The notes under the pieces: model-generated
What the model saw: only the letters and a program-made list of their open reading frames with translations
What the model was told of the DNA's origin: nothing
Database searches by the model: none
Translations under genes and position numbers: made by a program
Shown here: positions 41,183-46,464 of the stretch, one piece after another
Layout of the letters: the number at the start of each line of letters is the position of its first letter
How positions within the stretch are numbered: position 1 is the stretch's first letter
Origin: Halalkalicoccus sp. CGA53
GTDB taxonomy: Archaea; Halobacteriota; Halobacteria; Halobacteriales; Halalkalicoccaceae
DNA: 64,000 nucleotides
Assembly: GCF_036429475.1 (NCBI RefSeq)
Contig: NZ_CP144125.1
Span: forward strand, 2,807,521 to 2,871,520
Reading direction: 5' to 3'

Positions 41183-42007
41183 TCACCCGAACTTGCCGGT
41201 GATGTAGTCTTCGACCTCCTGGTTCGCCGGGTTCTCGAAGATCGTCGTCGTGTCGTCGAACTCGACGAGTTCGCCGCCGGTGAGGAACACGGCCGTTTTA
41301 TCCGAAATTCGGGCGGCCTGCTGCATGTTGTGCGTGACGATCACGACGGTGTACTCGCGTGCGAGTTCGGCGATCAGGTCCTCGATCTTCGACGCCGCGA
41401 CCGGGTCGAGTGCGCTCGTCGGCTCGTCCATCAGGACTACCTCCGGATCGGGCGCGATGGCGCGGGCGATGCAGAGGCGTTGCTGCTGCCCGCCGGAGAG
41501 ATCGAGTCCGGAGGAGTCGAGTTTACCCTCGACTTCGCTCCAGAGGGCGGCACCTCGAAGGGCTCGTTCGACGTCGTCGTCGGTCGCGGGCTTGCCCTGA
41601 ACCTTCAGCCCGTAGGCGACGTTGTCCCGGATCGACTTCGGGAAGGGGTTGGGTTTCTGGAACACCTGCCCGATCTTCCGACGGAGCGCCACCGGGTCGA
41701 CGTCGTCATCGTAGACGTTCTTGCCCCGAAATCGGAGATCGCCCTCGACGCGACAGACCTCGATCTGGTCGTTCATCCGGTTGATACACCGCAGGAACGT
41801 CGATTTCCCACAGCCCGACGGGCCGATGATCGCGGTGACCTTCTTCTCGGGGATCTCGATCGAGACATCCAGGAGCGCCTGCTCCTCGCCGTAGTAGACG
41901 TCGAGGTCGGCCGCCTCCAGGATCGTCTCGTCGGCCCGCGCCGATCGCTCGGTCTCCCTGCTCGTTACCTCCGTCGAGATCAGCCGTTCGTTCTCTCCTG
42001 TTGCCAT
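41183..42007 (-). CDS. pstB: Phosphate ABC transporter ATPase PstB
   Basis: The 274-residue ATPase has Walker A (GPSGCGKST), [10 protein letters not shown], the Q-loop [10 protein letters not shown], signature [14 protein letters not shown], Walker B ([13 protein letters not shown]) and [13 protein letters not shown]. These are PstB-specific. The N-terminal 25 residues are an acidic haloarchaeal extension. It is followed by phoU (four bases) and preceded by pstA. Confidence 0.97.
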
Positions 42008-42008
42008 G

Positions 42009-42908
42009 TCAGAGCCTCGTTTCGTATCTGTTTCGGACGAAGAAGGCGACGCCGTACATCCCGACCAGGATCGTCAGCAGGACGAGGATGCCGAGCGCCG
42101 CCAGGTTGTGGAACTCGGTGACCGGGCGGAACGCCCAGTAGTAGATCATCGTCGGCATCGACCCGAACAGCGAGAACGGGTCGGGCGTCTGCCGTGCCTG
42201 GAGCACCGCCCCGACCATGATCAGCGGCGCCGTCTCGCCGATCGCCCGGGCGAGCGCGAGGATCGTCCCGGTGACGATCCCGGGCAGGGCAGCCGGGAAC
42301 ACGACGCCCCGGACCGTCTGCCACCGGGTCGCCCCCGTCGCGAGCGAGCCGTCGCGCATCCCGCTCGGGACGGCACGCAACGACTCCTGGCTCGCGACGA
42401 TGACGATCGGAACGACCAGCAGCGCGAGCGCGATCGAGCCGGCGAGCAGGATCGAGCCCAGCCGGAGCCCGTTGACGAACACCCCGAGCGCCAACAGCCC
42501 GTAGACGACCGACGGCACCCCCGCGAGGTTCGTCAAGTTCGCCTCGACCAGGCGGACGATCCGGTTGTTCGGCGCGTACTCCTCCAGGTAGGTCGCGGTG
42601 GAGACCCCGAGGAAAAAGGAGAATACCAGTGTCAGGAGGACGAGCCAGACCGAGCCGATGATCGCGGGCAAGAAGCCTGCCTGTTCCCAGTCGCGGGAGG
42701 CACCGCTGGCGAGGAAGGTGGTGACGTCGATGCCGTGGACGAGCAGCCCCACCGCGGTCTCGAACAGGACATCGAAGACGAGCAGCCCGAGCATCACCAC
42801 ACCGAAGACCGACGCGAGGAACAGCGTCGCGTGGAAGAGGAACTCCTTTCGTTTCACCCACGTCAGATCGATCTCCGAGAGGACCCCCGAGTCGGTATCG
42901 GTGCTCAT
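42009..42908 (-). CDS. pstA: Phosphate ABC transporter permease PstA
   Basis: A 299-residue permease with six membrane spans. The PstA core is [17 protein letters not shown], and the coupling loop is [22 protein letters not shown], followed by [18 protein letters not shown] prefer the ATG at 42908 over one four codons earlier. It ends one base before pstB. Confidence 0.95.
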
Positions 42909-42963
42909 CGGATCCCCCAACCGGTCGGGTCGGAGCCGGCGAACCCCGGCAGTACGACGGGGC

Positions 42964-43983
42964 TCACTGGTAGACCTCCCGATACCGCCGCTTGATATAG
43001 TCGTTAATCAGGTTCGCGACGAGCGTCATCAGGAAGAGCACCAGCCCGACGGCGAAGAGACTCTGATACGTGACCGAACCGACGCTCGCCGTCGAGCGCA
43101 TCGTCGTCACCATGTACGCGGTCATCGTCTGGACCTCCGCGAGCGGGCTGGCAACGAACGTCGCCGTCGCACCCGCCGCGAGGGTGACCGCCATCGTCTC
43201 GCCGATCGCGCGGCTCACCGCGAGGATGTAGGAGGCGAACACGCCCGAGATCGACGCGGGGAGGACGACGCTCGTCGACACCTCGTACTTCGAGGCGCCG
43301 AGCGCGTACGCGCCGTCTCGCAGGTCGTCCGGGACCGCCTGCATCGCGTCCTCGGAGATCGAGGCGACCATCGGGATCGTCATGATCCCGACGACGACCA
43401 TCGCCGACAGCGCGTTGTTCCGACCGATGGAGATACCGAACATCTCCAAGACGGACCGGAGCAACACCGGCGTGACGAACGAGACCGCAAAGAAGCCGTA
43501 GACGATCGTCGGCACCCCCGCGAGCACCTCGAGCGTCGGCTTGAGGTACCTCCTCGTACGCGCGCTCGCGTACTCCGAGAGGTAGAGCGCCGCCGCGGTC
43601 CCGATCGGAATGGCGACGAACGCGGCACCGACGGTGATCAACAGCGTCGCCGAGATCAGCGTCGGGATGCCGAACCGCGGGTCGTCGGCGTGCGAGGGCC
43701 GCCACTCGGTGTCGAAGAAGAACTCGCCGAACGTCACCCGCTGAGTCAACCCCTCGGCGCTCAGCCCCGCCAGCGAGTAAAGGAGCCACTGCGAGAACGT
43801 GGCGTCGAAAAAGAAGCCCCAGGTGTTGTCGAACAGCACGACGAAGATCGCGATCGTCGTCAGCACCGTGATCGACGTGCAGCCGAAGAGGAGCCGGCGG
43901 ATCAGCCGATCGCGTCGCTGATCGGCGGCCGCGACGTCGCCGGTGATCCCAGGGCCGGGGTCGGTGGTGGTGTCCGTGCTCAT
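42964..43983 (-). CDS. pstC: Phosphate ABC transporter permease PstC
   Basis: A 339-residue permease. PstC features are LEVLAGVPTIVYGFFAVSFV, YALGASKYEVSTSVVLPASI in the coupling loop, and AVSRAIGETMAVTLAAGA. About six or seven spans, plus an extracytoplasmic loop of about 60 residues after the first span (around GLTQRVTFGEFFF). It begins 14 bases after the pstS stop. Confidence 0.95.
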   Translation of the reverse strand: MSTDTTTDPGPGITGDVAAADQRRDRLIRRLLFGCTSITVLTTIAIFVVLFDNTWGFFFDATFSQWLLYSLAGLSAEGLTQRVTFGEFFFDTEWRPSHADDPRFGIPTLISATLLITVGAAFVAIPIGTAAALYLSEYASARTRRYLKPTLEVLAGVPTIVYGFFAVSFVTPVLLRSVLEMFGISIGRNNALSAMVVVGIMTIPMVASISEDAMQAVPDDLRDGAYALGASKYEVSTSVVLPASISGVFASYILAVSRAIGETMAVTLAAGATATFVASPLAEVQTMTAYMVTTMRSTASVGSVTYQSLFAVGLVLFLMTLVANLINDYIKRRYREVYQ

Positions 43984-43997
43984 CTAGATCCGACTCT

Positions 43998-45062
43998 CTA
44001 CTCGTCTTCGTCGTCGGTCTCCTCGACCTCGATCGCCTTGCCGGGCGTCCCGCCCAGTTCGGTGAAGTAACCGACGCCACCCCAGCCGAAGGCGTACTGG
44101 TTCTCCGCGACCCCCTCCATGATCGAGCCGGTGTCGGTGTGGGCGCTGTAGTCCGTGCGGATCGAGCCGATCTCGCCGTTGATCTCGCGCGTGAAGTAGT
44201 CGAACGTCCCGGAGTCGTCGTCGCGGCCCCAGAGCTCGATCTCGTCGTCCGGGTAGTCGTCACGGATGTCGCTCCACTGTGTGATCTCGGACTCGAAGCG
44301 CCAGACTTCGTGGAGTTCGTCGAGGGTGATCTCCTCTATCCAGTCGTTCTCGGCGTGTTTGACGACCGAGAGCCCGTCCCAGCCGATCTCGTAGTGGCTG
44401 TACTCGACGCCGTTCTCCTCGGCCTGCTCGGCCTCCTCGTCGAGGATCTCGCGGCTCGCACTCTGGATATCGGAGCCACCGGTCGAGAAGTCCTCGAATC
44501 CGGCACCGGTTCCCTCGGGGTTGACCGCGACGGTCACGCCCCCGTGTTCGGCCTCGAAGTCCTCCCCGGCCGCGTCGGTGACCGGCGCGACCGTGTTCGA
44601 ACCCGAGCACTCGACGGTGCCCTCGGCGTTCGCCGAATCGGGATCGACCCCAAGGTCGTCGAGGACGGCCTGGAACTCCTCTACGTTCCCGTCGCGGACC
44701 TCGTCGGTCGCCGCGTAGTAGCCCGTCTCGCGGGCGAAGTCGTGCTGGCCCTCGAAGTAGAACTGGACGAACGAGCCGATCAGATCGGGGTTCTCCTCGA
44801 GGCTCGCGTGGCTCACGTAGATGAACAGCGGACGCGTCAACGGCGAGTAGACCCCGCTCTCGAGGTTCTCCTGAGTGGGGTGATAAAACTCCCCGTCCTG
44901 GTCGCTCTCGACGGCGACCGTGTTGATCGCGGCCGACGAGACGGCCGCGCTCTCGAGGGTATCCATACAGCCGGCGAGGCCGAAGGCGCTCGCCGCGCCA
45001 GCGGCCGTGACGAACGCTCGGCGCGAGGTGCTACCCGTGATCCGCGATGGGTCGTGTGCCAT
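43998..45062 (-). CDS. pstS: Phosphate-binding lipoprotein PstS, apparently circularly permuted
   Basis: The 354-residue protein has a Tat signal (TSRRAFVTAAG) and lipobox (GLAGC). In ordinary PstS the Ser-rich phosphate loop (GSSTV) is N-terminal and the PT-x-EN-x-x-G-x-Y-PLSRPLF-x-Y block is C-terminal. Here the order is reversed: HPTQENLESGVYSPLTRPLF is at about residues 60-80, with SFVQFYFEG and ETGYYAA after it. ECSGSNTVAPVTDAAGEDF comes at about 150, then ASREILDEEAEQ, DDDSGTFDYFTRE and the end AFGWGGVGYF. All parts of the phosphate site are present. It is the first gene of pstSCAB-phoU and is divergent from an AbrB-PhoU gene. Confidence 0.92.
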   Translation of the reverse strand: MAHDPSRITGSTSRRAFVTAAGAASAFGLAGCMDTLESAAVSSAAINTVAVESDQDGEFYHPTQENLESGVYSPLTRPLFIYVSHASLEENPDLIGSFVQFYFEGQHDFARETGYYAATDEVRDGNVEEFQAVLDDLGVDPDSANAEGTVECSGSNTVAPVTDAAGEDFEAEHGGVTVAVNPEGTGAGFEDFSTGGSDIQSASREILDEEAEQAEENGVEYSHYEIGWDGLSVVKHAENDWIEEITLDELHEVWRFESEITQWSDIRDDYPDDEIELWGRDDDSGTFDYFTREINGEIGSIRTDYSAHTDTGSIMEGVAENQYAFGWGGVGYFTELGGTPGKAIEVEETDDEDE

Positions 45063-45426
45063 CGCTTAGGCGGATGAGTGGATCTCATAAGTAAACTGCT
45101 AAGAGAAGTATATAGACCTACGGGCAAAAAATATCAGTAACGGTACGGGCGTATCGCTATGCGCTGGAAGGTACTGACAGTCGATCATCCGTCGACCGCG
45201 TTCTCACAAAAACCCCTCGAGCGTGTCAGAAACGGCTCTCGTGCCGATTTGGGTGATAGGGGCGGTTCGACGGGTCACGCGAGTAGCTCTCGGGAGCGAG
45301 ACCCACTGGCTCGATATACGGTTCGTATCTCTCGGGAAGACGGTGAACGGTTCGACTCGAACGACGTCTCCGATGCTACTATATACTTTTGGACAGGCTT
45401 ATGTATCGGCGGTGCGAACGACGCGC
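45063..45426. promoter_or_regulatory. Divergent control region of the pst operon and AbrB-PhoU gene
   Basis: About 360 non-coding bases. For pstS (minus) there are two TATA candidates: 45087-45097 (leaderless spacing) and 45107-45116 (AGTATATAGA). For the AbrB-PhoU gene there are CTATATAC at 45379-45386 and GCTTATGTAT at 45397-45406, the latter with leaderless spacing. The middle (45140-45370) holds no gene I can support and may carry phosphate-response sites. Confidence 0.5.
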
Positions 45427-46464
45427 ATGGAGGTTCGAAAGGTCCAGATCACGGGCGGATCGACGTTCACGGTCTCGCTTCCGAAGGAGTGGGCGAGCGG
45501 ACTGGGAATCGAGGCCGGGACGGAACTCGCCTTCTTCCAGGATGCCGACTCGCTGATCGCGACGCCGAACGACAACACCCCGGAGGAGGTCGCGACCGTC
45601 GACATCTCCGCTGTCGAGGAGACCGAGCTCGTCAGCCGCGTGATCACCCTCTACGTCAACGGCTTCCCCGAGATCGTCCTCGAGGCCGAGCCGATCACGC
45701 CCGCACAGCGGCGGGCGGTCCGCTCGGTGACGAACGGGCTCGTCGGCTTCGAGGTGAGCACCGAGACCGACGGCCGGATCGTCCTCCGGGACTTCCTCGA
45801 CTCCTCGGAGCTCTCGATCCACAACACCGTGATGCGGATGCGACTGATCGCGCTCTCGATGCTCGCGGACGTCATCGAGGCGCTGATCGACGGCGACGCC
45901 TCGCTCGCCCGCGACGTGATCGGGCGCGACGACGACGTCGACCGGCTCTGGTACGTCACCTCGCGGATGTTCCGGGCGGCACTCCGTGACCCGCGGGCGG
46001 CCGCGAAGCTCGACGTCGACCGGGGGACCTGTTTCGATTACCGATCCTGTGCCAGACAGATCGAGCGGATCGCCGATCACGCCGTGAAGATCGGCCACCA
46101 CGTCGGCGAGCTCGACGACCTGCCCGAGGGGATCGACGAGCCGTTCCGAGCGCTCGAGGCGGAGGCGACGGCGGTCGTCGAGAACGCCATGGACGCCTTC
46201 CTCGTCGACGACGACGAGCGGGCGACCGAACTCGCCTCCGAGACGCTCGCGCGCGCGCAGGAGATCGACGGGCACGCACGGGCGATCGACGACCACCTCC
46301 GAGAGATCGACCCCGTCGACGCCCAGCACCTGGGGCTGGTCGTCGACTCGCTCACCCGGATCGGCGACTACGGCGCGAACGTCGCCGAGACCGCCCTCCA
46401 GAAGGCCGCTCCGTCCCCATCGGCGAGCGGGAGACGGTACCGTCCGCCCGCCTCGATCGAGTGA
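45427..46464 (+). CDS. AbrB-PhoU fusion regulator
   Basis: The 345-residue protein starts with a swapped-hairpin AbrB/SpoVT domain: VRKVQITGGSTFTVSLPKEWA, GLGIEAGTELAFF. It is followed by two PhoU helical repeats with CARQIERIADHAVKIGHHV and DSLTRIGDYGANVAETAL, which bind metal clusters in PhoU proteins. In haloarchaea this architecture is called PhoU2-like and is linked to phosphate control. It is read divergently from pstS and is intact, while the operon's own phoU is frameshifted. Confidence 0.9.
   Translation: MEVRKVQITGGSTFTVSLPKEWASGLGIEAGTELAFFQDADSLIATPNDNTPEEVATVDISAVEETELVSRVITLYVNGFPEIVLEAEPITPAQRRAVRSVTNGLVGFEVSTETDGRIVLRDFLDSSELSIHNTVMRMRLIALSMLADVIEALIDGDASLARDVIGRDDDVDRLWYVTSRMFRAALRDPRAAAKLDVDRGTCFDYRSCARQIERIADHAVKIGHHVGELDDLPEGIDEPFRALEAEATAVVENAMDAFLVDDDERATELASETLARAQEIDGHARAIDDHLREIDPVDAQHLGLVVDSLTRIGDYGANVAETALQKAAPSPSASGRRYRPPASIE

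Follow-up and report, generated by a model that had tools for sequence, protein, structure and literature searches.

Few natural circular permutations of solute-binding proteins have been reported. Among those already known is TpMglB-2 (Tp0684) of Treponema pallidum, a permuted solute-binding lipoprotein of known crystal structure, which binds glucose and closes, and whose authors propose a tie between the permutation and membrane tethering (PMC4990184). For the phosphate-binding protein PstS, our literature search, with subscription journals outside its coverage, returned no mention of a permuted form of any kind. Nor did the literature searched mention a permutation in PDB entry 4h1x, the PstS2 of Streptococcus pneumoniae, which is the binding protein of the pneumococcal Pst2 transporter, active in vivo (PMC4913102). 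When a printed clostridial PstS sequence was put together in rotated order and used as the query, 4h1x gave one continuous 150-bit alignment (chain 15–263), whereas the alignment of ordinary PstS to the same query splits in two; to judge from its sequence, 4h1x is a naturally permuted PstS.

Here, we describe a PstS lipoprotein of Halalkalicoccus sp. CGA53, encoded in a 64,000-nucleotide stretch of DNA that is referred to as the window (Table 1). A preliminary description of the gene had proposed a Tat-lipoprotein signal, the closing PstS block placed first with the SGSNTVAPVT loop near residue 150, a circular permutation with all parts present, and normal adjoining pstC, pstA and pstB genes, all of which our analysis bears out. 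Behind the signal peptide, the chain reads TVAVESDQDGEFYHPTQENLESGVYSPLTRPLF...FVQFY...ETGYY at about residues 46–117 and continues into a long helix; SGSNTVAPVT occupies residues 153–162, and the chain finishes with an acidic tail after GWGGVGYF. The first block (block B) thus comprises the strand TVAVES, PTQEN, SPLTRPLF, FVQFY, ETGYY and the final helix (to about residue 140), for which AF2 predicts the elements E44–52, H64–69, E76–84, H85–90, H92–104, H106–112 and H120–137, and the second (block A) comprises SGSNT, EGTGAGF, SREI, GRDDDSGTFDYF and GWGGVGYF.

Table 1 Features of the permuted pstS gene and its operon, in window coordinates.
Feature	Position	Strand	Basis
pstS, circularly permuted phosphate-binding lipoprotein, 354 aa	43998..45062	−	ORF and translation; TIGR02136/PF12849 in two swapped stretches; 4jwo alignment
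Tat signal peptide and lipobox, residues 1–32 (RR14–15, LAGC32)	44967..45062	−	Sequence; R14–R15, G31 and C32 invariant in 13 relatives
Block B, residues 46–142, C-terminal part of canonical PstS	44637..44927	−	Block HMM match; AF2
Fusion linker VDPDSANAEGTVE, residues 139–151	44610..44648	−	Comparison of permuted and canonical alignments
Block A, residues 146–338, N-terminal part of canonical PstS	44049..44627	−	Block HMM match; ligand positions mapped to E. coli PstS
pstC, ordinary	42964..43983	−	TIGR02138, 243.7 bits (cut-off 196.45)
pstA, ordinary	42009..42920	−	TIGR00974, 225.7 bits (cut-off 193.45)
pstB, ordinary	41183..42007	−	TIGR00972, 367.9 bits (cut-off 343.2)
Regulator, AbrB/MazE-like DNA-binding and PhoU domains, divergent	45223..46464	+	Pfam PhoU, MazE_antitoxin

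The closest solved sequence, 4jwo, is the PstS of Planctomyces limnophilus (37% in structural alignment), which has the canonical order, unlike the window protein. Its alignment to the window protein (overall E = 3e-53) pairs residues 138–346 with chain 51–258 and residues 48–117 with chain 255–323. Similarly, PF12849 (PBP_like_2; 94 bits against a cut-off of 27) and TIGR02136 both hit the protein in two pieces of exchanged order, the latter with 194 bits, slightly below its cut-off of 206.6 and much as canonical PstS of the same genus scores (locus L016, 194.6). Block HMMs returned the order B-A in the window protein and its kin, 13 proteins that we call type I (a label for the permuted form, not for the fold), and the order A-B in about 50 canonical relatives, L016 included, bar one with a short extra B match, a split that argues against chance. 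The canonical N-to-C order of the PstS fold is therefore absent from the window protein, while all parts of that fold are found in one chain, in rotated order, by the 4jwo match, the block HMMs, the mapping onto E. coli PstS and the rotated alignment. After rotation, the window protein is 65% identical to L016 over 291 residues, with 92% secondary-structure agreement. L016 is also alike in signal peptide type, operon and regulator layout and ligand residues, and differs in its A-B order, in having its termini in domain I and in having its anchor beside the first phosphate loop.

The AF2 model of the window protein, built from a 13-sequence alignment, was of moderate confidence, with a mean pLDDT of 71 and a pTM of 0.66, with residues 281–309 below 50, compared to 80 and 0.78 for the model of L016, and after rotation the secondary-structure elements of the two models correspond one to one. 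In order-bound Foldseek searches of the PDB (E ≤ 0.001), the canonical model obtained 933 matches and the permuted model 11, headed by 4jwo and then by 4h1x, itself permuted; annotation pipelines and sequential structure searches cope badly with permuted proteins. Because motif order, rotated alignment, rotated AF2 secondary structure and conservation in 13 genomes agree, a circular permutation of the window PstS is supported. The permuted order is genuine and conserved and, as far as the sequences indicate, the protein is almost certainly functional.

Mapping onto E. coli PstS, whose inter-domain crossovers we take to be 84/85 and 257/258, places these crossovers at residues 236/237 and 80/81 of the window protein, respectively, so that the cut falls in domain II. 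Published PstS domain limits agree with both E. coli positions (PMC12421899, PMC5439949), and a cut at the hinge strand was dropped in view of this mapping and these limits. The mature chain would keep the two-lobe type II binding-protein fold and both crossovers, its domain order changing from I-II-I to II-I-II, and the lipid anchor should shift from domain I to domain II, so that the anchored end would emerge from domain II. TpMglB-2, by comparison, has a type I (cluster B) sugar-binding fold and belongs to another family, with another cut and an extra fourth crossover; the window protein does not have this fold and thus falls outside the TpMglB-2-like cluster Bc, its family and structural matches being to PstS, of the type II fold.

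Taken as a whole, it is very probable that the gene encodes a functional PstS whose chain has been circularly permuted. The old C-terminal block would follow the signal peptide, its old tail fused straight to the old first strand, with the new ends between the GWGGVGYF helix and the next strand, in domain II. Phosphate would be held by the usual loops (SGSNT, EGTGAGF and RDDDSGT) and handed to the ordinary PstC, PstA and PstB encoded alongside. The likeliest route to this arrangement would be a tandem duplication, after which the coding sequence came to begin and end at new positions.

The position of the cut can be read from the two ends of the type I proteins. The strand TVAVES (T48–S53), which precedes PTxEN, is N-terminal and invariant across all 13, and the C-terminal tail after GYF (KAIEVEE here) is unconserved and absent in L013–L015, which puts the cut in the original chain after the GWGGVGYF helix and before the TVAVES strand. 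This overturns the earlier placement of the pre-PTxEN strand at the C-terminus, in KAIEVEE. A duplication scar with the strand kept at both ends, suggested by the resemblance of KAIEVEE to the moved strand, is likewise unsupported, since the tail is unconserved and absent in L013–L015. At the joint, old strand 1 (GTVECSGSNT) begins directly where the old C-terminal tail (DLGxDPDxxxV) ends; comparison of the alignments shows that type I lacks the Gly/Asp-rich lipoprotein linker of the canonical form. Around the gene, a search for repeats that might drive rearrangement found weak codon-level repeats only, with no large repeats and no inverted pairs.

In a tree of rotated sequences, the 13 type I rows form one branch (support 92/76), with canonical L016 as its sister (97/86). 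Support for a single clade is modest, and since the type I loci do not group as a single clade in the PstC tree (AU p = 0.052), their history may involve recombination, a subsequent reversion of G081 to the canonical order, or two separate permutation events within type I. We also found a second permuted form, type II, as two paralogous PstS proteins in the genome G002, from another family (L039:2247–3299, − strand, and L040:2478–3506, + strand). Type II belongs to a different PstS subfamily, being 34–36% identical to the window protein and 64–71% identical to its own canonical kin, and its pre-PTxEN strand remains C-terminal, which places its cut just after that strand, on the opposite side from the type I cut. 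A single origin of types I and II was rejected (AU test, p = 2e-5); haloarchaeal permuted PstS has two separate origins. Like the window protein, the streptococcal 4h1x is a permuted PstS lipoprotein whose two ends lie in domain II; it differs in its cut, before SRENGSGT and after TTWDK, and in its lineage. PstS has consequently been permuted at least three times, twice in haloarchaea and once in streptococci, and this recurrence adds to the importance of the case. All three cuts lie in domain II, which makes up slightly more than half of the chain; taken alone, this is not significant.

Instead of tandem duplication and trimming, fission into two genes and re-fusion, or a cut-and-paste event, could have produced the B-A order. 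Fission and fusion is an accepted permutation route, and the duplication route, for its part, predicts a tandem-duplicated intermediate (PMC3320104). No clear duplicated stretch is left in type I, as fission and fusion would have it, but we found no split pstS halves among the loci examined, and a tandem PstS (L041:1970–3982, − strand, genome G119) is present in another haloarchaeon as one 679-aa ORF with the order A-B-A-B. Behind its single signal peptide, L041 carries two near-identical canonical PstS domains. It belongs to another PstS subfamily than type I and so shows just that the duplication step happens. On balance, fission or cut-and-paste appears doubtful to us, and tandem duplication followed by trimming is the route that we prefer.

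For this PstS, unpermuted kin are thus available down to the same genus, together with a second, independent haloarchaeal cut in almost the same position, a relative with a tandem duplication and, in 4h1x, a third case of known structure that had gone unremarked. Direct tests become possible of how permutation happens and of whether ABC import is affected when the binding protein is anchored through its other lobe. With both ends placed in domain II by at least three permutations, a shift of the lipid anchor onto lobe II, away from lobe I, may even have been selected for, an idea that we regard as speculative and unlikely; if true, it would perhaps alter how the tethered binding protein reaches the permease.

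We further considered whether the permutation changed the function of the protein, giving it another ligand or a sensor role in place of phosphate delivery. E. coli R135, S139, G140 and T141 correspond to R280, S284, G285 and T286, which are invariant in the 13 type I proteins, and E. coli D56 corresponds to S203. The phosphate-loop residues are the same as in canonical kin, and the operon encodes a full transporter, both of which speak against a new role. Some type I genomes also hold a canonical pst operon, which leaves room for specialisation, and a cysteine at position 152 is unique to type I and invariant there. Overall, a changed function seems improbable, and on the sequences the permuted PstS is predicted to form a complete fold, bind phosphate and serve in its transport.

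The permuted pstS is the first gene of pstS-C-A-B in all 13 type I loci, and a divergent PhoU-domain gene stands beside most of these operons, a layout also seen with canonical pst operons. The window genome itself has a second pstS, of canonical order and with its own pstCAB (C2:3077386–3078180), as well as a third PBP_like_2 protein (C2:76395–77075). With a second complete pst operon at hand, the permuted gene could be a decaying, non-functional rearranged copy, uptake being left to the canonical paralogue at C2:3077386. This is very improbable in light of its intact ORF, its invariant ligand residues, its long retention at the head of an intact operon and dN/dS values of 0.10–0.27 between type I genes, which are under purifying selection.

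Within the order, 295 genomes were searched and yielded full-length permuted relatives at 93, 80, 75, 72, 72, 61, 60, 58 and 56% identity, and a class-level search added two more; a phylum-level search for further members recovered the window genome only, within that sample. In total, type I occurs in 12 of about 435 distinct haloarchaeal genomes sampled and in one more record, giving 13. According to a GTDB contig scan, its holders span several haloarchaeal families and include the named cultures Natronorubrum texcoconense and Natronococcus amylolyticus, Halococcaceae and Natrialbaceae MAGs, and others; several of the MAGs apparently come from soda lakes, going by isolate names. The question raised earlier, whether this is a clade-wide form, is thus answered in part: type I marks a patchy clade, which does not take in all haloarchaea. 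An assembly error or chimeric contig, which the preliminary description had named as its possible refutation and by which blocks might change places in one genome, has a negligible chance of being the explanation, since we found no evidence for it, the window genome is in two contigs with no large repeats near the gene, and the same order recurs in independent assemblies, at 93% identity in one of the same genus and at 56–80% in 11 further genomes.

The residue just before SGSNT, C152 (44607–44609), is Cys throughout type I (13 of 13), where the canonical kin have Ala. We rejected the possibility that it is a relic of the old lipobox, as the Cys replaces an Ala of the first strand with no gap in the alignment. 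Together with the lipobox C32, it makes up the full complement of two cysteines in the permuted PstS of the window.
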